A DNA stretch of 64,000 nucleotides from Solwaraspora sp. WMMA2065. Its GTDB lineage: Bacteria > Actinomycetota > Actinomycetes > Mycobacteriales > Micromonosporaceae. Where the stretch lies: positions 1,302,001-1,366,000 of the forward strand of contig NZ_CP128361.1 in the NCBI RefSeq assembly GCF_030345075.1, read 5' to 3'. Each line of letters begins with the position of its first letter. Positions within the stretch are counted from its first letter, which is position 1. Shown here in pieces: positions 2 to 64,000 of the stretch. A program made the position numbers and the translations under genes. Under the pieces are notes generated by a model. It was not told the DNA's origin. It saw only the letters and a list, made by a program, of their open reading frames with translations, and did no database searches.

Positions 2-598
2 TCCGGCCGCGGTCGCTACGCCGAGGAGGAGACTGGCCGGGGCCGGTACGCCGAGGACGACACCGGCCGGGGCCGGTACGCCGAGGACGACACCGGCGCA
101 CGCCGGCGCTACACCGAGGAGCCGGACCAGCGGCGCTACGCCGAGCCGGCCGGCGGCCGGCGGCGCCAGGTCGCCGACGACGGTGGTTACGAGCCTCGCG
201 AGTCACGGCGTTCGGTGGCGGAGACCATCGGCTCCCGGGGCCGCTACGCTGATGACCGTCCGGTCTCGGGCACCGGTGCCCGTAGCCGGTTCGCCGACGA
301 CCGTCCGGTTTCCGGGGCCGGCCCGCGCGGCCGGTTCGACGACCGTCCGGTCTCCGCCGAGCCGGCCCGCGGTCGGGCGTCGCGCTACCGGGCCGACCCC
401 GATCCGGCACCGGTGGACCGGGAGCTGGATGACTACCTGCCGGCCGACGACACCCCGACGCTGGTCGATCTGGCCTCCCGGCGGGCCCAGCGGGCGGCTG
501 CGGCGGAGTCCGCGGGCAGCCGGCGGTCCCGGCGACGTCGGGACGCGGAGGATTCCGACGACGAGTACTGGACGCAGCTTCGAGGAGAGGCGAATTGA
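2..598 (+). CDS. C-terminal part of a protein with a Tyr/Arg/Asp-rich repetitive tail (5' truncated)
   Basis: The frame is open from the left edge of the window and stops at 596-598, so only the C-terminal part is visible (about 198 residues). It is low-complexity and highly charged. A 10-residue unit of the type GRGRYAEDDT is repeated at least three times near the edge, two copies being identical over 30 bp, and a looser RYADDRPVSG-type repeat follows. The last 60 residues are less repetitive, with an acidic stretch and an Arg-rich stretch before the end. The stop overlaps the TTG start of the next gene (TTGA), so the two are translationally coupled. The partner is a NuoF-like/ferredoxin fusion, so the missing N-terminus could be a membrane redox protein such as a ferric-reductase-like protein; that is an inference from context only. 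Confidence 0.75.
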   Translation, partial: SGRGRYAEEETGRGRYAEDDTGRGRYAEDDTGARRRYTEEPDQRRYAEPAGGRRRQVADDGGYEPRESRRSVAETIGSRGRYADDRPVSGTGARSRFADDRPVSGAGPRGRFDDRPVSAEPARGRASRYRADPDPAPVDRELDDYLPADDTPTLVDLASRRAQRAAAAESAGSRRSRRRRDAEDSDDEYWTQLRGEAN

Positions 599-26553: not shown

Positions 26554-26657
26554 CGTTGACGTTCCGCCAACGAAGGTGCTCTCGTCAGCGAGATGTCTTC
26601 GTCAGCGACGTGGTTCCGTCAGCGATGCGTCCTCGTCGGCGATGTGCTTCGTCAACG
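26554..26657 (+). repeat. six tandem ~17-bp repeats in the HelR-like leader
   Basis: Units beginning CGCCAACG (26565), CGTCAGCG (26583, 26600, 26617), CGTCGGCG (26634) and CGTCAACG (26650) follow each other at 18, 17, 17, 17 and 16 bp. The first unit is also inverted against CGTTGACG at 26554-26561. The array lies 68-171 bp before the helicase start. It is near-helical-turn spaced only for every third unit, so either a multi-site operator or a transcribed leader is possible. Confidence 0.6.
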
Positions 26658-26674
26658 CATCCTCACAAGAAAGA

Positions 26675-26693
26675 AGACGCCTCTGCGGCGTCT
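26675..26693 (+). promoter_or_regulatory. leader hairpin upstream of the HelR-like gene
   Basis: AGACGCC and GGCGTCT form a perfect 7-bp stem around TCTGC, ending 31 bases before the TTG start. A 27-codon ORF (26625-26708, Arg-rich, no clear ribosome site) runs through it and ends 16 bases before the start. An attenuator-like leader is possible. Confidence 0.4.
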
Positions 26694-26724
26694 GACAATC
26701 GCGGCTAACAACAAGGGGGCACAC

Positions 26725-29154
26725 TTGTCAAGTGCGGTGCAGGCACCCGGGCGTGACAACATCAACGGTGTGGATCAGACCGTCACCGACACCGACCGGC
26801 CCGAGGAACTGGACCGGGCCGCCGATCTCGCCGCGGAGCAGCAGTACGTCACCATGCTGCATGAACAGCTGGACTCTCTGCGGGGGATGGCGCAACGGCG
26901 GCTCGCGACCGCGCTCCGGCAGACCGGTGGCACGCCGCAGGCGCGCTCCGAACGCGAGGCCACGGTAGCACTGCACACCGAACGGATAGCGCAGTACAGC
27001 GCAGTGGAGAACGGACTGTGTTTCGGTCGGCTCGATCTGACCGACGAGGGACACCGCTACATCGGCCGGATCGGGCTCTTCGACGAACAGGGCGATTATG
27101 AGCCGTTGTTGATCGACTGGCGGGCCCCGGCCGCCCGACCCTTCTACCTGGCGACCGCCGCGGCGCCGGACGGTGTCCGCCGCCGGAGGCACATCCGCAG
27201 CCGGCTGCGGACCGTCACCGCGATCGACGACGAGCTGCTCGATCTGGAACTCGCCCGGGACCACCGGACGAGCACGCTGACCGGTGAGGCGGCGCTGTTC
27301 GCCGCGATCACCGCGGGTCGGACCGGGCGGATGAAGGACATCGTCCAGACCATCCAGGCCGAACAGGATGAGATCATTCGGGCACCGGTGGACGGGGCGC
27401 TGGTGGTCCAGGGAGGCCCGGGTACCGGTAAGACCGCCGTCGCGCTGCACCGCGCCGCGTACCTGCTCTACACCCACCGCCGAGAGCTGTCCAGCCGGGG
27501 TGTGCTGGTGGTCGGGCCGAACGCGACCTTCCTGCGGTACATCGCTCAGGTCCTGCCGTCGTTGGCCGAGACCGGGGTGCTGTTGCGTACCCTCGGAGAG
27601 CTGTATCCCGGGGTGCGTGCGACCCGGACCGAACCGGACCGGGTCGCGGAGATCAAGGGTCGGGCGGCGATGGCGGAAGTGGTGGCGGCCGCGATCCGGG
27701 ACCGGCAGGAGGTGCCGGACGAGCCGGTGCTGGTCGACGTGGACGGCCACCAGCTGCGGATCACCGCGCAGATCTGCGCCGACGCGCGCGAACGTACCCG
27801 CCGGTCGGGACGGCTGCACAACCTGGCCCGCCCACTGTTCGACACCGAGATCGTGCACGCGTTGGCTGACCAGATCGCCGACCAGATCGGCATCGACCCG
27901 TACGCGGACGATCCGCTCGGTGGCGACGACGCTCCCGGTGATCCGCAGGTGCTGGCCGAGGCGGACCTCGCGGAGATCCGACGGGAACTGCGCGCCGACC
28001 CGGCGCTGCGGTCGGTCCTGGACCGGTTCTGGCCGGTGCTGACCCCGCAGCGACTGCTCACCGACCTCTTCGCCTCGCCCGAGCGGCTCGCGGCCGCCGC
28101 CCCCGACCTCGGTTCCGCCGAACGCGACGCGCTCCGGCGCGCCCCCGGCGGTGGCTGGTCGCCGGCGGACGTACCGCTGCTCGACGAGGCAGCCGAGTTG
28201 CTCGGTGTCGACGACAGCGCCCAGCAGGCGCTCGCCGAGGCTCAGCGCCGCCAGCGGCTCGAGTACGCCGAGGGAGCGTTGGACGTGCTGCGCGGGTCGG
28301 AGTCCATCGACGTGGAGGACGAGGCGGAGCCGGAGATCCTCGGCGCGACCGACCTGCTCGACGCCGAGGCGCTGGCGACCCGGCAGGTGGCTGGTGACCA
28401 CCGGACGGCTGCCGAACGGGCGGCGGCGGACCGTACCTGGACCTTCGGCCACGTCGTCGTCGACGAGGCCCAGGAACTGTCCGCCATGGCGTGGCGCCTG
28501 CTGATGCGCCGCTGCCCGAACCGGTCGATGACAATCGTCGGGGATGTGGCCCAGACCGGGGCGTTGGCCGGCGCGGAGTCCTGGGCGCAGCTGCTGCGGC
28601 CGTACGTGGCGGACCGCTGGAGGCTGGCCGAGCTGACGGTGAGCTACCGCACTCCGGCCGAGATCCTGGCGGTGGCTGGTCGGGTGCTCGGCGCCATCGA
28701 TCCCGCCGCCTCGGTGCCCCGGGCGGTCCGCGAGTCGGGCGTGCCGGTTCGGTGGGAGCGGGTGCCCCGGGCCGGCCAGCTCGTCGACGGGCTGGTCGAG
28801 CTGATCCGGGCGGAACTGTCCACAGTCGGCGACGGGCGGCTCGGGGTGATCGTGCCGGCCGGCCGGCACGACGGGTTGGTGGAGCAGGTACGGGGGGCAG
28901 TTGACCGGGTCGCGTCCGGTGAGCAGCCCGACCTCGAGTCGCCCGTGGTGGTGTTGACCGTCGCGCAGGTCAAAGGGTTGGAGTTCGACTCGGTCGTGGT
29001 GGTGGATCCCGCCGCGATCGTCGCTGACTCGCCACGGGGCCGCAACGATCTGTACGTGGCGCTGACCCGGGCTACCGCGCGGCTGGCGGTGCTGTACCCC
29101 GGGGAGCTCCCGTCGATTCTCGGCGCGGTCGGCTCCGGCGGCGCTGGCGAGTAG
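26725..29154 (+). CDS. helR: HelR/HelD-like superfamily 1 helicase (RNA polymerase-associated ATPase)
   Basis: An 809-residue UvrD/Rep-like ATPase. An N-terminal helical arm (about 20-70, RPEELDRAADLAAEQQYV) precedes the 1A domain with Walker A GGPGTGKTAVALHR near residue 230, VVVDEAQEL near 575 and a C-terminal YVALTRATARL motif VI. This layout fits actinobacterial HelR/HelD, which bind and recycle stalled RNA polymerase; in Streptomyces HelR gives tolerance to rifamycins. The TTG start at 26725 follows AGGGGG by 5 bases; GTG 26770 is an alternative. The frame upstream runs through the tandem repeats and is not conserved-looking. I do not see a typical rifamycin-associated element here. Confidence 0.85.
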   Translation: MSSAVQAPGRDNINGVDQTVTDTDRPEELDRAADLAAEQQYVTMLHEQLDSLRGMAQRRLATALRQTGGTPQARSEREATVALHTERIAQYSAVENGLCFGRLDLTDEGHRYIGRIGLFDEQGDYEPLLIDWRAPAARPFYLATAAAPDGVRRRRHIRSRLRTVTAIDDELLDLELARDHRTSTLTGEAALFAAITAGRTGRMKDIVQTIQAEQDEIIRAPVDGALVVQGGPGTGKTAVALHRAAYLLYTHRRELSSRGVLVVGPNATFLRYIAQVLPSLAETGVLLRTLGELYPGVRATRTEPDRVAEIKGRAAMAEVVAAAIRDRQEVPDEPVLVDVDGHQLRITAQICADARERTRRSGRLHNLARPLFDTEIVHALADQIADQIGIDPYADDPLGGDDAPGDPQVLAEADLAEIRRELRADPALRSVLDRFWPVLTPQRLLTDLFASPERLAAAAPDLGSAERDALRRAPGGGWSPADVPLLDEAAELLGVDDSAQQALAEAQRRQRLEYAEGALDVLRGSESIDVEDEAEPEILGATDLLDAEALATRQVAGDHRTAAERAAADRTWTFGHVVVDEAQELSAMAWRLLMRRCPNRSMTIVGDVAQTGALAGAESWAQLLRPYVADRWRLAELTVSYRTPAEILAVAGRVLGAIDPAASVPRAVRESGVPVRWERVPRAGQLVDGLVELIRAELSTVGDGRLGVIVPAGRHDGLVEQVRGAVDRVASGEQPDLESPVVVLTVAQVKGLEFDSVVVVDPAAIVADSPRGRNDLYVALTRATARLAVLYPGELPSILGAVGSGGAGE

Positions 29155-53277: not shown

Positions 53278-53688
53278 ATGCTGACGCATGACGTGAACCG
53301 GCGACCGGGACTCGGCGTACCGGGAACCATCGACAGTGATCGTATCCGCACCGCGCTGACCAGCCGGTACCAGGAGTTGACGGCTGAGTACGAGCAGGCG
53401 ATGACGCAGAGCCAGGTGCTGCGGCTGGTCGAAGGGGGCGACACCGCCGGCGACGACCAGGCCGACAGCGGCACGAAGACCGCCGAGCGGGACGCGGCCC
53501 AGTCTTTGATCCGTACCATCCTGGAGCGTCGCACCCAGTTCGAGCATGCCCTGGCCCGTCTCGCCGCCGGCGACTACGGGCGTTGCGAGGGCTGCGCCGT
53601 AGCCATTCCGGTGGAGCGGCTGGAGATCTACCCCTCGGCCACCACCTGCGTCACCTGCAAGCAGTCCCGGGAACGGCGGGCGGCCTGA
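53278..53688 (+). CDS. DksA/TraR-family zinc-finger protein
   Basis: A 136-residue protein: N-terminal helices (about 25-95) then a C4 zinc finger CEGC-x17-CVTC near residues 104-127. Actinobacterial members of this family bind RNA polymerase or remain uncharacterised. ATG 53278 follows GGGGGA by 7 bases. Neighbouring DUF2267 gene 68 bp downstream suggests one transcript. Confidence 0.88.
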   Translation: MLTHDVNRRPGLGVPGTIDSDRIRTALTSRYQELTAEYEQAMTQSQVLRLVEGGDTAGDDQADSGTKTAERDAAQSLIRTILERRTQFEHALARLAAGDYGRCEGCAVAIPVERLEIYPSATTCVTCKQSRERRAA

Positions 53689-53756
53689 CCGGGACCGTGC
53701 GGATCACGAGCGCCCCCCGGATCACCGGCACCACGAACCGACGAGGGAGCACGAAG

Positions 53757-54188
53757 ATGACGACTGCCCAGCTGACTGCCATTGACGCCACCGTGGACAA
53801 GACCAACCGGTTGCTCAGCGAGATCGAGCACGAACTCGGCTGGCCGGCGCAGCGCCGCCAACAGTCCTATTCGGCGCTCGCCGCCGTGCTGCACACGTTG
53901 CGCGACCGGCTACCACTGGCCGAGGTGGTGCAGCTCGCGGCGCAACTGCCGCTGCTGGTCCGCGGGCTGTACTACGAGGGCTGGGACGCCACCTCGGCTC
54001 CGACGAAGCTGGACCGTGCCGAGTTCGTCGCCCGGGTGCGCCGGGACTTCCCGTTCGACGTCGAGGGCGGCGCCGAGCAGGTGATCCGGACGGTCAGCCG
54101 GGTGCTTCGACGGCACGTCAGCTCCGGCGAGTGGGACGACGTGCTGGCCACCGTACCGGTCGAACTGCGTGACCTGCTGAGCGACTGA
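53757..54188 (+). CDS. DUF2267 protein
   Basis: A 143-residue helical cytoplasmic protein matching DUF2267: repeated pairs of helices with SYSALAAVLHTLRDRLPLAEVVQLAAQLPLLVRGLYYEGWD and a second copy beginning FVARVRRDF. Function unknown; such proteins are often stress-linked. ATG 53757 has an AGGGAG site within 15 bases. A stem-loop follows the stop. Confidence 0.85.
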   Translation: MTTAQLTAIDATVDKTNRLLSEIEHELGWPAQRRQQSYSALAAVLHTLRDRLPLAEVVQLAAQLPLLVRGLYYEGWDATSAPTKLDRAEFVARVRRDFPFDVEGGAEQVIRTVSRVLRRHVSSGEWDDVLATVPVELRDLLSD

Positions 54189-54189
54189 C

Positions 54190-54219
54190 GCCGCTGCCCG
54201 CACCGCAGCGGGCAGCGGC
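54190..54219. terminator. bidirectional terminator hairpin
   Basis: 54190-54201 and 54208-54219 form a perfect 12-bp GC-rich stem with an ACCGCA loop, one base after the DUF2267 stop and seven before the convergent GH3 stop. Confidence 0.7.
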
Positions 54220-54226
54220 ACCCCCG

Positions 54227-56638
54227 TCACCGTACGGTCACCTCGGTGGCCAGCCGGCGTCGGTGGTCGACCTGCCGCTGGGCGCCGACCAGCCGGACCG
54301 CGACCCGGTGGCGGACGTCGGTGCTCGACGCGGCCAGCCGCAGCTCCAGATCGCCGGGCTCGACGACCCGGCGCCCGTCCCGCCCGGTGAAACACGACAG
54401 GTCGGCGGAGAAGTCGAACTCGACCCAGCGCGCCTGGCCAGCCTGCAACAGCACCCGGGCGTACCCGACCAGCCGGATCACCGGTCGGGTGACCTGCGCC
54501 ACCGGGTCGTGCAGGTACAGCTGGACGATCTCGCTGCCCGCGCGGTCACCGGTGTTGCGTACCCGCAGTCGGATCCGCAGCGTGCCGTCGGTGCCGATCT
54601 GCGCCGGAGCCGCACCCCGGTCGTGCTCGACCCCGTCGACCAGCGGCGTCGACCACTCGAACGAGGTGTACGACAGGCCATGACCGAACGGGTACAGCGG
54701 ACCGGGATCGACATTGCTCACCTCGGTCCGGTGTCCCAGCAGCGGGCTGAGATAGCTGGTCGGCTGGCCGCCGGCCTGCCGAGGAACCCCGATCGGCAAC
54801 CTGCCGGACGGGCAGACCCGGCCGCTGAGCACACCGGCGACCGCGCGGCCCCCCTCGGCACCGGGGAAGAACGCCTGCACCACCCCGGCCAGCCGGTCGG
54901 CGTACCGGCCGAGCGCGTACGGGCGTCCGGTCAGCAGCACCAGTACCACCGGGGTGCCGGTGGCGACCAACGCCTCGATCAACTCACCCTGCCGTCCGGG
55001 CAGTTCCAGGTCGGTGGCGTCGCAGCCCTCGCCGGAGGTTCCGGCGCCGAACAGCCCGGCCCGGTCCCCAACCACCGCGACACAGACGTCGGCCCGCGCC
55101 GCAGCGTCTGCGGCCACCACGATGCCCGGAGTGTCCTGCCCGTCCACCGGGCCGGTGGTGACGTGCTCGATGGCCGCTGCAGGCAGCTCGGCCCGCAGCG
55201 CGGCCAGGACGGTCCCCATCGGGAGTTGGTCACCGGCGTCGGCCGGGACGGTACCGACGTGGCTGGGGAACGTGTAGCAGCCCAGCAGCCCGTTGACTGA
55301 GTCGGCCAGCGGTCCGACCACCGCTACCCGCCCCTGCTCGGGCAGCGGGAGGACGGTGTCGTTGGCCAGCAGGACCACCGATTCCTCGGCCAGCCGCCGG
55401 GCCAGGTCCCGATTCACCGGCGGGTCCAGGTCGATACCCGGCCCAGCGGACGGCCCGCCCGCCTCGCTCGGGTGGTCCGCCCCGGCCAGTGCCGGTGGCA
55501 CCGGATCCCAGTCCGGGTCGAGCAACCCCAGCTCACATTTCTGCCGCAGGACGCGGGTGACGGCCCGATCGACCACCGACTCCGGCACGGCACCCTGCCG
55601 GACTGCCTCGACAAGCGGGGCTCCGTAGCACCGTACCGCCGGCAGTTCGACGTCGACCCCGGCGCTGAGCGCCAGAGCGGCGGCGGTGGTGGGACCGTCG
55701 GCCACCCGGTGCAGCAGCTCCAGGAACGACACACCGAAGTAGTCCGCGACCACGGTGCCGGTGAACCCCCAGCGGCCACGGAGCAGATCGGTGAGCAGAC
55801 CGCCGTCTGCCGCCGCCGGTACGCCGTCCACCTCCGCGTACGAGTGCATCACCGATCGAGCGCCACCGTCGCGGACGGCCATCTCGAACGGTGGGAGCAG
55901 GACGTCGGCGAACTCTCGCGGGCCGACCGACACCGGCGCGAAGTTGCGCCCGGCCCGGGAGGCCGAGTAACCGGCGAAGTGCTTGAGGGTGGCCACCACC
56001 CCGGCCGATTCGAGCCCACGCACGTATGCGGTGCCGATCGTGGCGACCAGGTACGGATCCTCGCCGATAGTCTCCTCGGTACGACCCCAACGGGGGTCCC
56101 TGACCACGTCGAGCACCGGGGCGAGTCCCTGGTGCACCCCGACCGACCGCATGTCCTGCCCGATCCGACGCGCCATCTGTGTCACCAGGTCAGGGTCGAA
56201 GCTGGCACCCCAGGCCAGTGGGGTCGGGTACACGGTGGCGCCCCAGGTCATGAACCCGGTCAGGCACTCTTCGTGGATCAGCGCGGGAATACCGAAGCGG
56301 TTGCCGGCGACGATCTCGGCCTGCAGCCGGTGCAGCGCCCGGGCACCGTCGGCCGGAGTCACCGCCGTGGTGCCGAACGGGCGGGTCAACTGCCCCAAGC
56401 CGGTGTGCAGCAGGTCGGCCCAGTCAACTGACTCGTCGACCAGATCATGCTGCAGCGGGGCCATGTCGTCGATCGAGGCATTGGCGCCCCGCCAGTAGCT
56501 GTACAGCTGTGCGATCTTCTCCGTCAGCGACATCCGACTAAGCAGGTCGAACACCCGTTCCTCCACCGGTAGGGTGAGATCGCGCCACGGCGCTGACCGA
56601 TCGAGGGCCTCGTCCAGGGCATGGTTCGTGCCGCTCAC
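54227..56638 (-). CDS. GH3-family beta-glycosidase (beta-glucosidase-like)
   Basis: An 803-residue enzyme without signal peptide, so intracellular. The N-terminal barrel has EECLTGFMTWGATVYPTPL, DVVRDPRWGRTEETIGEDP, KHFAGYSASRAGRNFAP and the nucleophile Asp299 in VVADYFGVSF. An alpha/beta sandwich and a fibronectin-III-like C-terminus (YPFGHGLSYTSFEWS) follow. Such enzymes cleave beta-glucosides or xylosides taken up by the cell. GTG 56638 is chosen because AGGAGG lies 6 bases upstream and because the longer frame runs through operator DNA. It is divergent from the LacI-type regulator gene. Confidence 0.93.
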   Translation of the reverse strand: MSGTNHALDEALDRSAPWRDLTLPVEERVFDLLSRMSLTEKIAQLYSYWRGANASIDDMAPLQHDLVDESVDWADLLHTGLGQLTRPFGTTAVTPADGARALHRLQAEIVAGNRFGIPALIHEECLTGFMTWGATVYPTPLAWGASFDPDLVTQMARRIGQDMRSVGVHQGLAPVLDVVRDPRWGRTEETIGEDPYLVATIGTAYVRGLESAGVVATLKHFAGYSASRAGRNFAPVSVGPREFADVLLPPFEMAVRDGGARSVMHSYAEVDGVPAAADGGLLTDLLRGRWGFTGTVVADYFGVSFLELLHRVADGPTTAAALALSAGVDVELPAVRCYGAPLVEAVRQGAVPESVVDRAVTRVLRQKCELGLLDPDWDPVPPALAGADHPSEAGGPSAGPGIDLDPPVNRDLARRLAEESVVLLANDTVLPLPEQGRVAVVGPLADSVNGLLGCYTFPSHVGTVPADAGDQLPMGTVLAALRAELPAAAIEHVTTGPVDGQDTPGIVVAADAAARADVCVAVVGDRAGLFGAGTSGEGCDATDLELPGRQGELIEALVATGTPVVLVLLTGRPYALGRYADRLAGVVQAFFPGAEGGRAVAGVLSGRVCPSGRLPIGVPRQAGGQPTSYLSPLLGHRTEVSNVDPGPLYPFGHGLSYTSFEWSTPLVDGVEHDRGAAPAQIGTDGTLRIRLRVRNTGDRAGSEIVQLYLHDPVAQVTRPVIRLVGYARVLLQAGQARWVEFDFSADLSCFTGRDGRRVVEPGDLELRLAASSTDVRHRVAVRLVGAQRQVDHRRRLATEVTVR

Positions 56639-56713
56639 CGGCAGCCTCCTGTCGATCGCGCCGCGCCAGTCCAGTACCGGCGTCGCCGGACCGTCGCGCC
56701 TGTTCTCCGACAT

Positions 56714-56725
56714 GTTTCCGGAAAC
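56714..56725. promoter_or_regulatory. LacI-type operator palindrome O1
   Basis: GTTTCCGGAAAC is a perfect 12-bp palindrome 76 bp upstream of the GH3 start, in the gap shared with the divergent LacI-family gene. Form and position fit LacI-family operators. Confidence 0.6.
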
Positions 56726-56844
56726 TTGCGGCTTCGTCGAGATCTGGCAGTCCACAGTTTGCTGGCAGTGTCCGGGTATGCTCCCGCATCGTGGCAGCCG
56801 GATGTGTCCCGTCCGGCCGCCGTTCAGGCAACCGCCGCCCGGGC

Positions 56845-56856
56845 GGTTCCGGAAAG
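56845..56856. promoter_or_regulatory. LacI-type operator-like site O2
   Basis: GGTTCCGGAAAG matches O1 at 10 of 12 positions and repeats TTCC again immediately after it. It lies 131 bp from O1 and 177 bp before the regulator start, a spacing open to looping. The rest of the 394-bp gap (to 57032) has no ORF. Confidence 0.45.
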
Positions 56857-57032
56857 TTCCGGTCGGTGGCGCGGCCGACTCGGTCGCCGGCATGTGCGAC
56901 ACACTGCCGGCCGGGTCGATGCCAAGCGTTTTCCAACTGCGGCAAGATGGGGCCCGGACTCGGCGTTCGGAGCCGGACCGACTGGCGGAAGGTTCGGCCG
57001 TACGCTGAAGCCTCGACGAAGGAGTTGCTGCC

Positions 57033-58055
57033 GTGACGGTCGATGAAGGACGCAGGATCACGATCACCGCGATCGCCCAGGAAGCCGGTGTCTCCGTGCC
57101 GACCGTGTCACGGGTGCTCAACGGGCGCAACGACGTCGCCCCGCAGACCCGTGAACGGGTCGAGGAGCTCCTGCGTCGGCACGGCTACCGACGGCGGGCG
57201 ACCCGGTCCCGCGCCGGTGCCAGCCTGATCGACCTGGTCTTCAACGATCTGGACAGCCCGTGGGCCGTGGAGATAATCCGCGGCGTGGAGGATGTCGCGC
57301 ACGCCGCCGGGGTCGGAACCGTCGTCTCCGCCATCCACCGTCGGTCCGCGGCGACCCGGCAGTGGCTGCAGAACCTGCGGACCCGGGCCACTGACGGTGT
57401 AATCCTGGTCACCAGTGAACTCGCTCCGCCATTACACACCGAGCTGCGACGGCTGAACGTACCGATGGTACTGGTCGACCCGGCCGGCGTGCCGAGCCTG
57501 GACATCCCCACTATCGGGGCGACCAACTGGGCCGGCGGACTGCGAGCGACGGAACACCTCATCTCCCTGGGACACCGCAGGATCGGCTTCATCGCCGGTC
57601 CGCCCCGGCTGCTGTGCAGCCGGGCCCGGCTCGACGGCTACCGGGCCGCGTTGGAGGCGGCTGAGATCCCGCTGCGCCCCGAGTACGTCGTCCCCGGCGA
57701 CTTCTACCACGAGTCGGGCTTCGCTGGCGCGGCCGCGTTGTTCGACCTCGACGAACCACCGAGTGCGATCTTCGCGTCCAGCGACCAGATGGCCCTCGGC
57801 GCATTCGAAGCCCTGCGGCAACGCGGCCTGCGGGTTCCGGACGACGTCAGCGTGGTCGGCTTCGACGACCTGCCCGAGGTGCAGTGGTCGTCGCCACCGC
57901 TGACCACGGTGCGCCAGCCGCTGGCCGAGATGGGGCTGCTGGCGGCGCGGACAGTACTGCGTCTGGCGCAAGGGGAAGCGCTGGAGACGCCGCGGGTGGA
58001 GCTCGCCACCGAGCTGGTCGTGCGGGACAGCTGCGCGCCGTACCAGGAGCTGTAA
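57033..58055 (+). CDS. LacI-family transcriptional repressor
   Basis: A 340-residue regulator. The N-terminal helix-turn-helix with hinge (ITITAIAQEAGVSVPTVSRVLNGR, then REVEELLRRHGY-like) precedes a periplasmic-binding-protein-like sugar sensor (HRRIGFIAGP, SDQMALGAFEALRQRGLRVPDDVSVVGFDD). GTG 57033 follows AAGGAG by 8 bases. Divergent from the GH3 gene, which it most likely controls through the two TTCCGGAA palindromes, releasing DNA when its sugar is present. Confidence 0.93.
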   Translation: MTVDEGRRITITAIAQEAGVSVPTVSRVLNGRNDVAPQTRERVEELLRRHGYRRRATRSRAGASLIDLVFNDLDSPWAVEIIRGVEDVAHAAGVGTVVSAIHRRSAATRQWLQNLRTRATDGVILVTSELAPPLHTELRRLNVPMVLVDPAGVPSLDIPTIGATNWAGGLRATEHLISLGHRRIGFIAGPPRLLCSRARLDGYRAALEAAEIPLRPEYVVPGDFYHESGFAGAAALFDLDEPPSAIFASSDQMALGAFEALRQRGLRVPDDVSVVGFDDLPEVQWSSPPLTTVRQPLAEMGLLAARTVLRLAQGEALETPRVELATELVVRDSCAPYQEL

Positions 58056-58169
58056 CCCGGCCGGCCCCGCGTTTACCCGAGGTTAGTGACGATCCGCCTC
58101 GGGTACCACCCGCAGGCAGGAGCGCGCCGGCGCCGCCGGCGCGTGCCGACCGACCCGCAGGGGGCAGTC

Positions 58170-58448
58170 ATGACACTTGACGACGACGACATCCGCAGCA
58201 CCGGGCCCGCGACGGGTCACGGCCCGGCTGATGGTGGGGCGAATCCGGCTGGGCGCGACGGTGGTGCCGACGGCGGCGCTGGTCCGAAGGCGCAGGAGGG
58301 CCCGGCTGATGGTGGGGCGAATCCGGCTGGGCGCGACGGTGGTGCCGACGGCGGCGCTGGTCCGAAGGCGCAGGAGGGCCCGGCTGATGGTGGGGCGAAT
58401 CCGGCTGGGCGCGACGGTGGTGCCGACGGCGGGGCGAACCGGCGTTGA
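58170..58448 (+). CDS. 92-residue tandem-repeat peptide, candidate modified-peptide (RiPP-like) precursor
   Basis: A short leader (MTLDDDDIRSTGPATGH, 1-17) is followed by two identical 26-residue repeats (18-43, 44-69) and a third partial copy ending in NRR. Each unit runs GPADGGANPAGRDGG then ADGGAGPKAQE. There is no cysteine, no aromatic residue in the repeats and no hydrophobic core; Asp, Asn, Arg, Lys and Pro are the only reactive side chains. ATG 58170 follows GGGGG by 5 bases; a longer frame starts at 58086. The stop overlaps the TTG of the JmjC-type oxygenase gene (TTGA), so the peptide may be its substrate. No relative recognised. Confidence 0.7.
   Translation: MTLDDDDIRSTGPATGHGPADGGANPAGRDGGADGGAGPKAQEGPADGGANPAGRDGGADGGAGPKAQEGPADGGANPAGRDGGADGGANRR
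58221..58430 (+). repeat. perfect 78-bp tandem repeat (2.7 copies)
   Basis: Two 78-bp units (58221-58298, 58299-58376) are identical at every base, and a third is identical for its first 54-55 bases before diverging into the gene end. Perfect identity including silent positions points to recent duplication or ongoing homogenisation. Confidence 0.92.
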
Positions 58449-59779
58449 CTCGGCTGCCCACCGCGACACGTGGTGCCGGCTGCACCGGCGGGCACGGACT
58501 TACCGACCCGCCGCAGATCGCCGCGTCACCGGGCTCGCCGGGCGGTGCGGGCGCGTCCCGCCGCCCGGCGGCGCTGACCCGGTGCGTTGCGGTGGATCCG
58601 ACGACGTTCGCCGATGTCTACTGGGGGCGTAGACCGCTGCTGTCGCGCGCTGTCGACCTGGCCGGCCCCGCCGGCTTCACCGATCTGCTCGACGGCCCCG
58701 CAGCCGACCAGCTGCTGAGCCAGCACGGCCTGCGTACGCCGTTCCTCCGGGTGGCCCGGGACGGTGAGGTCTTCGCGGAACGGACCTACACCGGCAGCGC
58801 CGGCGCCGGCGCCGAGATCGACGACCAGGTGCTCGACGAGCGGGTGTTGGATCTGTATGCGGACGGTGCCACCCTGGTCCTGCAGGGCCTGCACCGGCTC
58901 TGGCCACCGATCATCTCGTTCATCGGCGAGCTGTCCACCACACTGGGCCAGCCGTTGCAGACGAACGCCTACCTCACACCGGCTGGCAGCCGTGGATTCG
59001 CCACCCACTACGACACCCACGACGTGTTCGTGCTGCAGACCGAGGGTCGCAAGCGGTGGCGGGTGCACGAACCGGTACTGACCGATCCGCTGCCCCAGCA
59101 GACCTGGTCGGGTCGGGCCGATGAGGTGGTTGCCCGGTCCGAGGCCGCACCTGCGCTGGACGTCGTGCTCGGCCCCGGCGATGCCCTCTACCTGCCTCGA
59201 GGCTGGCTGCACAGTGCCACCGCGCAGCAGGAGAGCTCGATCCACCTCACCGTCGGGATTCGCGCGTTCACCCGGTACTCGCTGGTCGAGGCGCTGCTCG
59301 AGCTCGCCGTCACCGAGCCGCAGCTGCGCACGTCGCTGCCGTTCGGCGCCGACCCGTGCGAACCCGCCGGGATCACCTCGGAGCTGACCGCGACGGTGGC
59401 GGTACTGCGTGACTGGTTGGCCTCTGTCGAGCCGGACCAGGTCGCGGCGCCTATGCGCCGCCGGGCCTGGTCGGCGGTGCGCCCGGCCCCATTGCCACCA
59501 CTGCAGCAGGCGGACCGGATCCGGACGCTGACCGTCGACGACGTCATCCGCCGCCGACCCGGATTGCGCTGGCGGCTCACCTCGCAGTCGGACGAGCGGG
59601 TCACCCTGCAGATCTTCGACCGTACGGTGAACTTTCCGGGCAGGTGCGTCCCCGCCCTGCGGGCGGTGCTGGACACCGCCGGTGTCCGGGTCGGCGACCT
59701 GCCAGGACTGGACACCACCGCCGACCAACTGGTGCTGGCCCGCCGTCTGCTGCGCGAAGCGGTCGCGGTCGTCGGCTGA
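58445..59779 (+). CDS. JmjC/cupin 2-oxoglutarate oxygenase of the ribosomal-oxygenase (ROX) type
   Basis: A 444-residue enzyme. The iron triad is complete: His188 and Asp190 in HYDTHDVF and His256 in LPRGWLHSA. The NAYLTPAGSRGFATHYDTHDVFV and QTEGRKRWRVH stretches match NO66/MINA53/YcfD-type hydroxylases, which act on His or Arg of ribosomal proteins. The last ~170 residues fit the dimerisation and winged-helix region of ROX proteins. The first ~45 residues are Gly/Pro-rich. TTG 58445 overlaps the repeat-peptide stop; a later start near 58560 is possible. Coupling suggests the repeat peptide as substrate, an inference. Confidence 0.87.
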   Translation: MTRLPTATRGAGCTGGHGLTDPPQIAASPGSPGGAGASRRPAALTRCVAVDPTTFADVYWGRRPLLSRAVDLAGPAGFTDLLDGPAADQLLSQHGLRTPFLRVARDGEVFAERTYTGSAGAGAEIDDQVLDERVLDLYADGATLVLQGLHRLWPPIISFIGELSTTLGQPLQTNAYLTPAGSRGFATHYDTHDVFVLQTEGRKRWRVHEPVLTDPLPQQTWSGRADEVVARSEAAPALDVVLGPGDALYLPRGWLHSATAQQESSIHLTVGIRAFTRYSLVEALLELAVTEPQLRTSLPFGADPCEPAGITSELTATVAVLRDWLASVEPDQVAAPMRRRAWSAVRPAPLPPLQQADRIRTLTVDDVIRRRPGLRWRLTSQSDERVTLQIFDRTVNFPGRCVPALRAVLDTAGVRVGDLPGLDTTADQLVLARRLLREAVAVVG

Positions 59780-59800
59780 TCCACCATCGGCCCGGTCGGG

Positions 59801-60466
59801 TCAGCCCAGCCCCGTCAGCAGGACGGCGGTCGCCGCCAGGCCGGCGACCAGGACGATCGACACGGTACGCAGGTCGAGCTCGGCATGCCGGCGGTCGGCC
59901 AGCGCCTTCGCCGGAACCAGCCCGAGTAGCGGACCGACCAGGGTGACGACGAGCGCGATCACCGGCATCCCGACCGCCAGGTCGCCGCCGTAGCGCTGCC
60001 CGGCCCACCGCGCGGCAGTGGACAACCCGAACGCGGCGACGGCTCCGGCGGCGCCGAACAGCGCCAGCACCGGATATGCCGCTCGGGACAGGGGACCCAC
60101 GTCGTTGGACCGCTCGACCAGGGCGCGGGCGGCCGCCAGCCAGTGCTCCGGATCGTCGTCAACGGCGGTACCAGGGGGCGGCGGCAGTGGTGCCGGAAGG
60201 CCACCAAGCCGTCCGGCCAACGGCCCGAACCGGTGACCGACCTCGGTCCAGATGTCGGCGGCCGCCCGGTCGACGTCCGCCAGCTCCCGGCTTGCCTGCT
60301 CGTGGAGTTGGTGCAGCTCCGCCAGGTCGGTCTCCACCTCGGCCACCGCGGCCTGCGCGCCGTCGCACCGTTGCGCGTACCACTGCTGCGCTTCGTTCCG
60401 GCGGTTCTGCAGCGCGGCGGCGAGTTCGGCGAGCCGGCGCATCAGCTCGGGGTAGGAGGCATCCAT
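59801..60466 (-). CDS. coiled-coil membrane protein, third gene of the FtsK-like operon
   Basis: A 221-residue protein: helical coiled coil (about 5-75, Glu/Gln/Arg-rich), a short Pro-rich linker, then three C-terminal membrane helices (AYPVLALFGAAGAVAAFGL, VGMPVIALVVTLVGPLLGL, VSIVLVAGLAATAVLLTGL). ATG 60466 shares one base with the stop of the ATPase gene (TGATG). No family recognised; it could anchor the ATPase at the membrane. Confidence 0.78.
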   Translation of the reverse strand: MDASYPELMRRLAELAAALQNRRNEAQQWYAQRCDGAQAAVAEVETDLAELHQLHEQASRELADVDRAAADIWTEVGHRFGPLAGRLGGLPAPLPPPPGTAVDDDPEHWLAAARALVERSNDVGPLSRAAYPVLALFGAAGAVAAFGLSTAARWAGQRYGGDLAVGMPVIALVVTLVGPLLGLVPAKALADRRHAELDLRTVSIVLVAGLAATAVLLTGLG

Positions 60467-63156
60467 CAGGTCAGCCCGTACGGGATGATGACCTCGGCGC
60501 TGCGGTGCACGGCCCGGTCGAAGAACAGCGCCCGCCACGGCCGGGGATACCACGCCGGGCCGCCGGCCCGGGGGTACAGCGGCGGTCCGAGGTCGGAGCC
60601 GTGCACGTCCAACGCCACCCAGGCGCCGATCTGGTCGGTCCGTGAGCCAATCCCGCCGAGGTCGTCACGCATCCGCGCCACACCGCGCCACCAGCCCAGC
60701 ACATGGGTGTGTCGCTCGGGCCCGAGGTGCAGCACCCGGCGGAGCCGGTCCAGGCCGGAGCGGCCGGCGAACTTCGCCGCCAGCCGTCCGGCGGCGGCGT
60801 CGACCGCGTACAGCACCAGGAAGTGTGGGCGGACCGGACCGTCCAGCACGTCACCGGAGAGCCGGTCAGCGGTGTCCGCGAGCAGCCCGCCGACGGTATC
60901 CAAGTCGTACAGTCCGGTGCCGGCCGGTAACGCCGCGTGTAGCCGGCGGGCGGCGGCTTCCGCGTCCGGGTCCAGACAGGCGATGTCGAACCGCGCCGCG
61001 CCGGGCGGGTACTGCCGGGCCAGGGACCGGGCACCCGCGTCGAGCAGGGCGCACGCCTCGTCCACCCGGGTGCCCAGTACCGCGAGATTGCGTCCGGGCG
61101 CCCGGGCCAGGCCGAGCCGGGCGGAGCGGGCCAGCACGTCGATCGTCTCGCCGAGCAACGCCACCGGTACCCGCGGTCCGTCGCTGTCGGCGATGAGCGC
61201 CTGGTAGTCCGGCGCCTCGGCCAGCCGGGGTACCACGTCGCCGTCGAACAGCCGCGGCGGGGGCAGGTCGGCGGACCGTCGTCGCCACAGTCGGTGTTGC
61301 AGTTCCTGCCAGGTGTCCCGGTCGCTGGCGGGCGGAACCCGGACGACCTGGTTGGCCTCCATCGCCCCGGACTCGGCGTTGACCACGGCGTGGTGGCGGG
61401 GCAGTGACTCCGCCGCGGTGTTGGTCTCCGGCAGGACGCGGCGCGCCTTCGGTAGCGCGATCCGTAGTGCGAACTGGGCGATCAGCGCGGTACGCCCCCA
61501 TAACGCCTGGATACCGGAGACGTCCTGGGACGCCAGGATCAGGTGGATGCCCTGTGACCGGCCACGCCGGGCCAGGTCCTCCAGCAACGTCGCGGCCTCG
61601 GTGGCCAGTGCGTCGTTGCCGGCGAGCAGCACCTGGAACTCGTCGATCACCGCCACGATGCGCGGCCACCGGCCCTGTGGGTCCTCGGCGCGCAACTCCG
61701 CCAGCTTCGTCACCTCGTGGCGTTTGGCGGCGTCGGCCCGCTGCCGCAGTTGCGCACCCAGGAAGTGCAGCATCGCCAGGCCGAACTCCCGGTCGGTGTT
61801 GACGTTCACCCCGACCAGCCGGACATGTGGCAGGAAGCTCGGATCCCGCCGGCCCGGCGCGAACCGGGCGAAGGACACCCCCTCCTTGAAATCCAGCAGG
61901 TAGAACTCCAGCTCGGTCGGGGAGTAGCGGGCGGCCAGGGCACCGATCCAGGCGTAGATCAGGTTGGTCTTGCCGGTGCCGGATGGCCCACCGATCAGCG
62001 CGTGCGGCGGATAGTCGCTCAGCGTCACCGTCACCGGCCGACCCTGTGGGCTGTCGCCGACCGGCGCGGTCAGCCCGGCGGTGGCGTCCTCGGTCCATTC
62101 CTGTTCGGGCAGCAGATCGCTGAACACCGCCGGGACCGGGCCGGCGGCGACCGCGGCGGCGATCTCCCGGCAGGTACGGGTGACCAACTCAGCCGGCGGT
62201 GGCGGGTCGATCCGTACCGGCAACTGCGGATAGCCGCTGACCCGGGCCGTGCCGCCGGAGACCGACACGGTGGTCACGGTGGGCGCGGCGCTGAGCCCGA
62301 CACCGCGGACGATCAGATGGACGCCGCAGGCGGCACCGGCGCGGGTGATCCGGTCCAGCTGAGCCCGTTCGTGCCGGGACAGCTCCTCCCCGGGCCCGCC
62401 CAGCAGGACGGCGATCCGCCACGGCTCGGGCCGTCGGCCGGTGGCTGTCGCCAGTTCGCTCAGCGTCCGGAACTCTCCGGCCAGCACCGTCTCGTTGATC
62501 CGGCGGATGTGGTCGACCAGGTCGTCCAGGTGCCGGCTCAGCCCACCGGGGCCGGCGAAGGTGAGCAGGCCGGGTCCGGCCAGCGGGGCGAAACCGGCGA
62601 GGCCGCCACCGAGCTGTTCCGGGTCGTAGCCGGTCAGTCGGACGGCGCCGGGCGCGGTACGGCCGAGGATCCGCAGCAGTAGCGCGGACAGCACGGCGTC
62701 ACACCCCGCTCGGTCGGCGCCGTCCAGCGCCACGTGGCCGTGGTCCAGGACCGCGACGAGCGCGGGTACGGCGGCACCCCCGGCCAGCCCGGCCAGCCCG
62801 GTCAGGCCGATCCGGCACGATCCCGGTGATTCCGTGCGTGCCGCCGGGGCGGGATGCCACCGGGCCCAGTCGGCGGCGGCGGCTCCCGGTGCCGCCCGGT
62901 CCACTGCCGCGACGGCTCCCCGGGTGACGACCGTTATCTGGTCGCGGTACTGCTCGGCGAGGTCGGCGAGCCGGCGGTCGCGGTGCACTGCGGCTCGGTG
63001 CGGCACCTGCTCGGCTGCCAGTCGTACCCGGTTGAGCTGTTGTTGCGCCGCGGCGATGTCCTGTTCGACGTCGTCAAGTCGGTTGCGGGCCGCCGCCCGG
63101 GCATGCCCGAGCGCCCGGCGGACCGCGGCTACCAGATCGGCCCGCGCGTCAGGCAT
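60466..63156 (-). CDS. multi-domain FtsK/SpoIIIE (EccC-like) ATPase
   Basis: An 896-residue protein. Residues 1-95 are coiled coil. A degenerate ATPase-like region (about 100-370) precedes the active FtsK domain with LIGGPSGTGKTNLIYAW (Lys near 396) and VAVIDEFQVLLAG (near 505), then RRGRSQGIHLILASQDVSG. A third, P-loop-less ATPase-like domain fills the C-terminus (about 640-880). Three tandem domains with one active resemble EccC/EssC of type VII secretion more than DNA pumps. No transmembrane helix is seen. It overlaps the upstream gene by 8 bases and the downstream one by 1. Confidence 0.82.
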   Translation of the reverse strand: MPDARADLVAAVRRALGHARAAARNRLDDVEQDIAAAQQQLNRVRLAAEQVPHRAAVHRDRRLADLAEQYRDQITVVTRGAVAAVDRAAPGAAAADWARWHPAPAARTESPGSCRIGLTGLAGLAGGAAVPALVAVLDHGHVALDGADRAGCDAVLSALLLRILGRTAPGAVRLTGYDPEQLGGGLAGFAPLAGPGLLTFAGPGGLSRHLDDLVDHIRRINETVLAGEFRTLSELATATGRRPEPWRIAVLLGGPGEELSRHERAQLDRITRAGAACGVHLIVRGVGLSAAPTVTTVSVSGGTARVSGYPQLPVRIDPPPPAELVTRTCREIAAAVAAGPVPAVFSDLLPEQEWTEDATAGLTAPVGDSPQGRPVTVTLSDYPPHALIGGPSGTGKTNLIYAWIGALAARYSPTELEFYLLDFKEGVSFARFAPGRRDPSFLPHVRLVGVNVNTDREFGLAMLHFLGAQLRQRADAAKRHEVTKLAELRAEDPQGRWPRIVAVIDEFQVLLAGNDALATEAATLLEDLARRGRSQGIHLILASQDVSGIQALWGRTALIAQFALRIALPKARRVLPETNTAAESLPRHHAVVNAESGAMEANQVVRVPPASDRDTWQELQHRLWRRRSADLPPPRLFDGDVVPRLAEAPDYQALIADSDGPRVPVALLGETIDVLARSARLGLARAPGRNLAVLGTRVDEACALLDAGARSLARQYPPGAARFDIACLDPDAEAAARRLHAALPAGTGLYDLDTVGGLLADTADRLSGDVLDGPVRPHFLVLYAVDAAAGRLAAKFAGRSGLDRLRRVLHLGPERHTHVLGWWRGVARMRDDLGGIGSRTDQIGAWVALDVHGSDLGPPLYPRAGGPAWYPRPWRALFFDRAVHRSAEVIIPYGLT

Positions 63157-64000
63157 CGCGCCCCCGCAGCGGTCGGGGCTGCTCCGGGCGCAGCGTCTGC
63201 GGCTCGCGGTCGAGCAGCCGCAGCAGTACGCCGGTGAGTACCGCGCCGGCGACGGCCGAGTCGGCCGGATGCGGCGGATCCGGGGGCTGCCCGGCCTGGT
63301 CACCGTCGGCCCGGCGACCGTCGTCGCGCCGCTCGTCGGCCGGCACCCGGCAGATCCGGGCGAGCAGGGTCTGCAGCACCGGATCCGGCATGCCGGGGAG
63401 CAGCTCGCGTACCCGTCGGGTGGTGGCGGAGGCGAGCTGACGCAGGTCCTCGGCCTGCGGCTCGTGGTCCAGCAGGTCTCCGGCGAGGCGGTGCAGCAGC
63501 GGTGGGGTGATCGCGGCGAGATTCAGCCCGGTCGGCGCGGCCACTGCGGCGAGGTCGCGGTGCAGTCCGGCCCGGTCCTCCCGACGGACCGCCGTCGCGA
63601 CCCTGCGCAGCAGTTCGGGGGTGTCGGTGGCGGCGGCCGGCCGGGTCGTGTCGGTGGCGGCGTCCGGCCCTGGCCAGACCCCGGCGGACTCCCGGTCGGT
63701 CAGCTCCGCGACCCGGGCGGCCCACCAGTTGCCGAGCTCGGGCGCGGCGGGCGCACCCGCCCGCCCGCCCGGTGCCGCCGTCGGTTCCTGGTCGCCGTCC
63801 AGTGCCGCCCGCCACCCGCTGTCGCCCCCCGCCGCCGGGCCGGCGCCGAAGCCGATCGCAGCCAGGTAGTCGTCCACCGACTGCGCAGCCACCCGCATCG
63901 CGTGGCCGGCCTGCTCCGCGTGTTCGGTCGCGCCGGTGAGCTGCGGCACCGCCAGCGGGTCCGCCGACTCCTGGCGGACCCAGATGAGCAACTCGGTCGC
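63149..64000 (-). CDS. hypothetical protein, first visible gene of the FtsK-like operon (5' truncated)
   Basis: At least 283 residues; the frame is open to the right window edge, so the true start lies outside. The visible N-part (LTGATEHAEQAGHAMRVAAQSVDDYLAAIG) is helical and could be a WXG100-like hairpin, though no WxG is seen in the visible part. A Gly/Ala-rich linker and a helical C-terminal domain with LLPGMPDPVLQTLLARI follow. No family recognised. It overlaps the ATPase gene by 8 bases, so expression is coupled. Confidence 0.65.
   Translation of the reverse strand, partial: ATELLIWVRQESADPLAVPQLTGATEHAEQAGHAMRVAAQSVDDYLAAIGFGAGPAAGGDSGWRAALDGDQEPTAAPGGRAGAPAAPELGNWWAARVAELTDRESAGVWPGPDAATDTTRPAAATDTPELLRRVATAVRREDRAGLHRDLAAVAAPTGLNLAAITPPLLHRLAGDLLDHEPQAEDLRQLASATTRRVRELLPGMPDPVLQTLLARICRVPADERRDDGRRADGDQAGQPPDPPHPADSAVAGAVLTGVLLRLLDREPQTLRPEQPRPLRGRDA

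Follow-up and report, generated by a model that had tools for sequence, protein, structure and literature searches.

A conserved Asp/Gly-rich repeat peptide encoded directly upstream of a JmjC oxygenase: a candidate enzyme-substrate pair in Solwaraspora and its actinobacterial relatives

The window analysed here, a stretch of 64,000 nucleotides from Solwaraspora sp. WMMA2065 (contig NZ_CP128361.1), contains two overlapping genes on the forward strand. The upstream gene (58170..58448, +) encodes an Asp/Gly-rich repeat peptide of 92 amino acids, a putative multicore substrate recognised from its ORF, its relatives and its dN/dS. The 92 codons run from an ATG at 58170 to a TGA at 58446-58448. The peptide opens with the acidic leader MTLDDDDIR, residues 1-17 being counted as leader, and is laid out as MTLDDDDIRSTGPATGH, then 2.7 copies of GPADGGANPAGRDGGADGGAGPKAQE and a short tail. 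Tandem Repeats Finder detected a perfect tandem repeat (58221..58432, +; 100% match) with a period of 78 bp, or 26 residues, in which conserved blocks of the form GPADGGANPAGRDGGADGGA, defined by block positions and between-copy DNA identity, start at 58221, 58299 and 58377 (+). The first-pass annotation had described a 92-residue peptide with 2.7 identical 26-residue repeats, the stop of which overlaps the TTG start of a JmjC gene; both points were borne out, the TTG lying at 58445-58447. No known family was found for the peptide in Pfam, NCBIfam, PHROGs or PADLOC.

The downstream gene (58445..59779, +) starts with this TTG and encodes a JmjC_2 (PF08007) Fe(II)/2-oxoglutarate oxygenase of 444 amino acids, identified by Pfam (E 1.6e-29, scoring 102 bits where the cut-off is 22), PDB sequence match and Foldseek. 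Its catalytic JmjC domain (residues 171-277; 58955..59275, +), taken from the Pfam stretch, carries His188, Asp190, Lys203 and His256, all of which are invariant in 51 aligned rows, and the intact His188/Asp190/His256 iron triad read from the sequence at first pass therefore stands. With a PF08007 domain, the HxD...H motif and the 2-oxoglutarate lysine, the protein has the marks of a ROX-type JmjC enzyme. The metal and co-substrate roles of JmjC active-site residues, including that of the 2-oxoglutarate lysine, are familiar from the family. Bacterial ROX-like JmjC proteins are often annotated merely as cupin proteins, as was the case in the plasmid records matched here.

The best PDB sequence match of the enzyme is NO66 (E 3.9e-23), and further matches are MINA53, the 'cupin 4 family protein' 4csw (titled elsewhere as Rhodothermus YcfD-like), YcfD and YxbC. 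The AlphaFold2 model (mean pLDDT 76, pTM 0.64) was likewise ranked closest to NO66 by Foldseek (E 1.9e-26), aligning over nearly its full length with a whole-chain TM of only ~0.55. By both searches, the nearest solved folds are protein side-chain hydroxylases. A C-terminal small domain (residues 366-443; 59540..59773, +) was delimited in the model, where block pLDDT is 81-96; it is predicted to consist of strands followed by two helices, in a winged-helix/RRE-like order. The overlap and the N-terminus of the enzyme are kept in two relatives of the genus (L242 and L243, enzymes 92 and 91% identical). In more distant relatives the match mostly begins ~5-50 residues in, so the exact start is uncertain. 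The gene gave the single JmjC_2 match in the 6.74-Mb genome of the window.

A search with the enzyme over named species contigs returned 334 relatives, the best 80 of which were taken; their genera all belong to the Micromonosporaceae. At 79 of these 80 loci an ORF upstream contains two or more ADGGA/DGGAD motifs, and at the remaining one (L031) the contig begins at the enzyme and so lacks upstream DNA. When 394 class genomes were searched with one peptide, 51 matched. In each of the 38 genomes where the peptide matched at E<=1e-5, the match lies immediately before a JmjC gene, and among the 13 with weaker matches, compared by hand, eight are also JmjC-adjoining and five (G166, G189, G215, G247 and G330) are without this adjacency. 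The search for homologous peptide-JmjC pairs, proposed at first pass as a check, was thus clearly positive (79/80 fetched loci; 38/38 class genomes), and a short precursor gene conserved as a pair with a candidate modifying enzyme is what a RiPP system would have. Of 121 Micromonosporaceae genomes, 70 gave a match to the enzyme at E<=0.001 and 65 of these reached E<=1e-80, so that the system is common, not universal, in this family; enzyme matches were found in 130/394 class genomes and 58/396 phylum genomes. At one locus (L248, genome G806) the enzyme frame is split into three pieces and the adjoining peptide ORF is intact.

The location of such peptides was controlled with stop-to-stop frames of at least 35 residues. 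A single frame of the window reaches four Asp-repeat motifs, and it is the peptide. The same control over 40 relatives' loci (524,339 bases), picked because they bear the enzyme and drawn from both peptide-bearing groups, gave 38 such frames directly upstream of the JmjC gene and eight further frames elsewhere, none of which scored above the minimum. Purifying selection on the peptide is strong: against its two nearest relatives dS is 0.35 and 0.29 and dN 0.010 (dN/dS ~0.03), dN is below dS in 15/15 pairs of six equal-length genus peptides (dN <=0.114, dS 0.29-1.41; L244, two codons shorter, was left out), and 21 family peptides of 101 residues (210 pairs) have a mean pS of 0.366 and pN of 0.049. 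The 19-residue blocks of the window array show 98-100% DNA identity between copies, and those of six genus relatives 88-93, 96-98, 84-89, 84-93, 82-91 and 96-100%, indicating that the array has been homogenised in the window and two relatives. The number of units varies, with 4, 3, 2 and 6 units in 36, 32, 4 and 1 of the 73 complete peptides (six of 79 were left out because of contig ends or masked letters).

Enzyme loci were gathered down to ~26% identity and placed in a midpoint-rooted FastTree tree of 140 enzymes, or 140 of 142 labelled rows (L138 and L193 have no upstream DNA). The tree took in only 15 of the 80 Micromonosporaceae loci; repeat fetches (L112-L118, L202-L241, L261) were left out, as were L119 and L120, non-duplicate loci carrying DGGA peptides, and L248 is absent too. 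All 81 DGGA-type rows fall in one clade of 84 rows (support 99), the other members of which are L256, L124 and L164. L256 (genome G864; enzyme 54% identical) has one isolated motif and no repeat peptide in the 1.2 kb upstream, and L252 (genome G794), under the same genus label, has the peptide; L124 and L164 have Asp-rich, non-repeated ORFs. The next to join are L158 and L159, which carry Asp-rich repeats of other kinds (86 rows, support 87). In a second clade of 32 rows (support 72), 29 carry DADGTD/DADA-like repeat peptides (DADGTDGDATD type) in the same upstream position as the DGGA-type peptide, the exceptions being L134 with ADGTDQGV-GGTYGPRDA repeats, L191 with a short DGTD-rich peptide and L169 with nothing visible. 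Core type accordingly differs between the enzyme clades, and the upstream position and often an acidic leader recur. A loose acidic leader pattern, counted without a background control, was seen in 57/81 DGGA-type and 30/33 DxD-labelled rows, and is missing from many DGGA-type peptides of other families. An automatic rule found a repeat peptide in 112 of the 140 tree rows, the figure being 112 and not 114 because the ORF of L260, although labelled DxD, is Glu-rich and that of L164 is Asp-rich without repeats.

The remaining 22 tree rows, mostly ~30% identical, lie outside both repeat-bearing clades. Twelve of them have a short Asp-containing ORF before the enzyme, picked by eye and without a background control, and one of these is repeated (L195, with two copies of the acidic unit TEDDENLDAPGEHSQDTGDEP behind ITDNDI). 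Such short peptides end in DGTDSSSDF(I) in L179, L181 and L183 and in ADPDGSDG in L186 and L187, or contain DSDGSDG internally (L189), GRSDGND (L175, L184), GRSDMNDS (L185) or DPSD motifs (L168, L258). The label 'none' was given to 26 rows. Three of them (L134, L191 and L195) carry Asp-containing peptides of another kind, clearly repeated in L134 and L195, and 11 gave no candidate by eye (L169, L174, L176-L178, L180, L182, L188, L200, L256 and L259). A Streptomyces clavuligerus plasmid encodes a JmjC protein (34% identical) together with a 48-aa peptide bearing DNDPSDP and DPDPFDP motifs, and genes for an S9 peptidase and an ABC transporter lie nearby. The first pass had named homologues that occur widely without any repeat peptide as a finding that would refute its reading. 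This applies mainly to distant paralogues of ~30% identity, such as the 22 rows outside the two repeat-bearing clades.

The scanned neighbours in the window (53583-63303) comprise a LacI-type regulator, a GH3 glycosidase, a DUF2267 protein, a 250-aa protein without Pfam match (59801-60553, -) and, on the opposite strand and convergent to the JmjC gene, an FtsK/EccC-like ATPase (60466-63303, -). The Pfam scan agrees with the earlier observation that no protease or exporter gene is adjacent, and no ATP-grasp gene, the hallmark of graspetides, was found among these neighbours. The ATPase is in the neighbourhood at 65 of the 81 loci from Micromonosporaceae; for the 250-aa protein beside it, the family was called at 20 of 81. 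PADLOC matches to mad8/SspH models probably reflect a shared ATPase domain; none of the three system proteins submitted to PADLOC (peptide, enzyme and one ferredoxin-like protein) had a match. The LacI gene was dropped as a system member, recurring in only 6/81 loci. The recurrent neighbour clusters of the family, with one representative examined each by Pfam, comprise the FtsK/EccC-like ATPase, two DUF72 proteins, a DksA-type zinc finger, a response regulator, an aminotransferase, GH43, GH10, LacI and three without Pfam match, and include no protease or exporter. The linkage to such genes that is usual, though not obligatory, in RiPPs was likewise not seen at 40 loci outside the family (~6 kb flanks), where an ABC ATPase family at 4/40, at scattered distances and on both strands, was the only one of this kind.

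Outside the family, a Suc_Fer-like gene is the only neighbour in more than four of these 40 loci, the neighbour families having been built by BLAST with coverage limits that rarer links could escape. It follows the enzyme on the same strand in 33 of the 40, with both core types, as counted with 20 query proteins from the same loci; six proteins examined by Pfam match PF06999 with E 1.2e-15 to 6.7e-20. Suc_Fer-like proteins are iron-sulfur proteins with a [2Fe-2S] cluster. No such match was found in the 80 Micromonosporaceae loci, some of which are cut short, and the genome of the window has no PF06999 match. Because the gene is present in 33/40 outside loci and absent from the family, the ancestral unit seems to have been peptide-JmjC-Suc_Fer, from which the family of the window would have lost the third gene; less probably, the gene was gained elsewhere. 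Conjecturally, the Suc_Fer-like protein may keep the oxygenase iron reduced or handle product-bound iron. At three loci (L207, L209 and L239) a small conserved protein replaces it, 1.2-1.3 kb after the start of the enzyme match; it is of the ATELCM/ASDLCMGLLAAG-PL-LICDLTD type with a conserved part of ~60 aa, and the one tested had no Pfam match.

Upstream of the peptide lies a promoter-like element, GGTTA-N(13-17)-GGGTA[C/T] (58081..58106, +), which ends 63 bp before the ATG and may resemble stress-sigma (SigB/SigF-type) promoters. Of the 68 Micromonosporaceae loci with an assignable start, 51 have it at most 120 bp away, where 100 first-order Markov shuffles gave 0.14 on average, and common descent explains part of this conservation. 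A looser pattern outside the family returned only L150 and L197, both with GGGAA and not GGGTA. Other kinds of element were considered for the locus and rejected: a mobile or phage element (only three viral matches, 26-33% identity, and 139 plasmid records, all below 60% identity) and a structured RNA (no Rfam match at the gathering threshold in 56500-60000).

Which residue could be modified was approached through conservation of the unit, using 73 distinct 21-residue family windows anchored on DGGADG, whereby residues 14-19 are fixed. Glu1 is kept in 71, Asp5 in 72, Pro10 in 66 and Ala21 in all 73; position 9 is Asn, Thr or Asp (Asn or Thr in 61/73) and position 13 mostly His, Arg or Gln. Asp is present in every core, both DGGA-type (81/81) and DxD-type (31/31, leaving out L164 and L260), although the peptides were recognised through Asp motifs, so that this is partly built in and the absence of other residues is the informative part. 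In the DGGA-type and DxD-type cores, respectively, Asn occurs in 43/81 and 6/31, Pro in 72/81 and 8/31, Arg in 36/81 and 11/31, Lys in 16/81 and 4/31, and His in 61/81 and 3/31; Thr is missing from 25/81 DGGA-type cores. Gly and Ala equal Asp in universality, yet a side-chain hydroxylase is less likely to act on them. The first-pass annotation had listed Asp, Asn, Arg, Lys or Pro as targets; Asp keeps its place on that list, being in all cores, whereas each of the others is missing from some. Since the other candidates are missing from some or most cores, Asp is the most economical target. Because many cores lack His, Arg or Lys, hydroxylation of these residues in the manner of ROX enzymes is disfavoured.

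The enzyme resembles the ROX/JmjC hydroxylases (NO66/RIOX1, MINA53/RIOX2, YcfD/RoxA and YxbC; PF08007) in its JmjC fold, HxD...H triad, 2-oxoglutarate lysine and C-terminal small domain, with NO66 as best match in sequence and fold. Nevertheless, NO66, MINA53 and YcfD act on ribosomal proteins, according to their PDB titles, whereas here a repeat peptide, apparently dedicated, is encoded next door, an arrangement common to enzymes from ~34% identity up in two clades. Judged from sequence, this linkage to the peptide would argue against a ribosomal protein as substrate.

JmjC or cupin-like enzymes hydroxylating ribosomal peptides have been described for biphenomycin-type RiPP clusters: PMC12257519 reports that PbsQ hydroxylates ornithine (+15.99 Da), and presents the role of BpmG as a proposal. 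The Solwaraspora enzyme may be similar in this respect. BpmG and PbsQ are, however, tailoring enzymes of multi-gene clusters with aromatic-rich cores, whereas in the window no candidate modifier other than the JmjC protein is linked to the peptide, the core of which consists of Asp-Gly repeats. That Asp in a ribosomal peptide can be beta-hydroxylated is established for nitrilobacillin (PMC13060819), although there the enzyme is an MNIO and a single residue (Asp21) is concerned. In addition, the closest bacterial JmjC homologues (~30%) of eukaryotic RRE-JmjC fusions sit in RiPP-like contexts, as stated in a passage of PMC12710340 which, for these PF08007 contexts, gives no precursor family, repeat or Asp motif. 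DGGADGG had no text match in the open-access papers searched, and a description of the peptide-JmjC pair was not among the matches listed in open-access papers, subscription papers lying outside the scope. The pair seems to represent a type of protein-modification system that has not been described.

The data show that the pair is conserved and linked, that the peptide is under purifying selection and that the active-site residues of the enzyme are kept; from this we infer that the peptide is a substrate, that Asp is the site and hydroxylation the reaction, and what the cellular role may be. One gene would supply the enzyme and the other a substrate dedicated to it. The peptide gene would make an acidic leader followed by repeated DGGA-D units, and the coupled JmjC enzyme would bind the peptide and hydroxylate its side chains with O2 and 2-oxoglutarate. 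The likeliest site would be the Asp beta-carbon in the DGGAD motifs (DGTD/DADG in relatives), many times per chain, and the Suc_Fer-like protein would complete the operon in most sampled relatives outside the family. The product may be a soluble, disordered poly-hydroxyaspartyl peptide, probably kept in the cell, that would act through its anionic, possibly metal-binding surface. An intracellular role is favoured because no protease or exporter recurs. That the locus is a genuine and ancient enzyme-substrate cassette is highly probable. The fuller proposal, a multicore RiPP-like substrate with Asp residues hydroxylated by the JmjC enzyme and an intracellular product, can be put forward with modest confidence, and if a single reaction had to be named, hydroxylation of Asp would be the first choice. 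Far more tentatively, and perhaps improbably, a phylum-wide actinobacterial JmjC system might make intracellular poly-(beta-hydroxyaspartyl) chains for metal (iron or calcium) binding or stress protection, with a Suc_Fer-like partner in most lineages and with the DGGA and DADGTD repeats, as well as the short DGTD/DPSD peptides encoded next to distant paralogues, being variants of a single modification clan.

Several observations weigh against parts of this proposal. The known ROX-type relatives hydroxylate His or Arg, as their PDB titles state, and not Asp; the universality of Asp in the cores is partly built into their detection; L256 lacks a repeat peptide, and the ORFs of L124 and L164 are non-repeated; only 70 of 121 Micromonosporaceae genomes have the enzyme; the Suc_Fer-like gene is absent from the genome of the window and from the 80 family loci; and there is no recurrent protease or transporter to account for release or export. 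The competing explanations are partly compatible with one another, and their probabilities need not sum to one. The peptide could be the substrate of another chemistry, such as desaturation, cyclisation, cleavage or hydroxylation of, for instance, Asn or Pro, which we consider unlikely. The 2-oxoglutarate enzymes of RiPP pathways do carry out other reactions, a title cited in PMC12710340 reporting dioxygenase-catalysed macrocyclisation, and the unit of the window's family does keep Pro10 (66/73 windows) and Asn or Thr at position 9 (61/73). Nevertheless, Asn and Pro are found in only 6 and 8 of 31 DxD-type cores, Thr is missing from 25/81 DGGA-type ones, and the nearest folds are hydroxylases. 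About equally doubtful is a peptide that, in the manner of ordinary multicore RiPPs, is cut into short pieces and exported as a signal or antibiotic by a protease and exporter encoded elsewhere, an explanation compatible with Asp hydroxylation. The repetition of units that nearly always begin with Glu (71/73 windows) would suit it, as would the S9 peptidase and ABC transporter near the Asp-motif peptide of the S. clavuligerus plasmid, but in the 40 outside loci only the Suc_Fer-like family exceeds four occurrences, the ABC ATPase (4/40) is scattered, and nine neighbour-cluster representatives of the family include no protease or exporter by Pfam.

It is quite improbable that the peptide is a translationally coupled leader ORF controlling the oxygenase, the true substrate of which would lie elsewhere, for example in the ribosome. 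The stop-start overlap and a fold closest to ribosomal oxygenases point in this direction; a control ORF, however, need not keep its residues, as this one does (dN/dS ~0.03 against the nearest relatives), the repeat number varies (2, 3, 4 or 6 units in 73 complete peptides) and the core is swapped for another Asp repeat across a whole enzyme clade. A GC-rich simple-sequence accident without product can practically be dismissed: the region is indeed GC-rich, and Gly, Ala and Asp codons are common there, but the peptide occupies the same place in 38/40 loci against eight threshold frames elsewhere in 524 kb and is strongly constrained. A chance or low-complexity ORF is ruled out by conservation, dN/dS and the location control.

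The dedicated-substrate reading has practical weight, because a tiny conserved adjacent partner provides a directly testable substrate for whole enzyme clades in many families of the phylum. If Asp were hydroxylated many times per chain, the modification would be unusual for a protein in its polymer-like character, and the product might serve as a metal-binding material encoded in the genome.

Other repeats were noted in the window. At its left edge, which truncates the gene, 2-598 (+) encodes the C-terminal portion of a protein bearing tandem repeats of the GRGRYAEDDT type, and the ORF directly following (595-2073) is NuoF/ferredoxin-like by eye. A short imperfect 34-bp tandem repeat (26576-26654) lies at the start of ORF 26593-29154, which by eye is UvrD/HelD-type helicase-like; since its first codons fall inside this repeat, the start of that ORF may be wrong.
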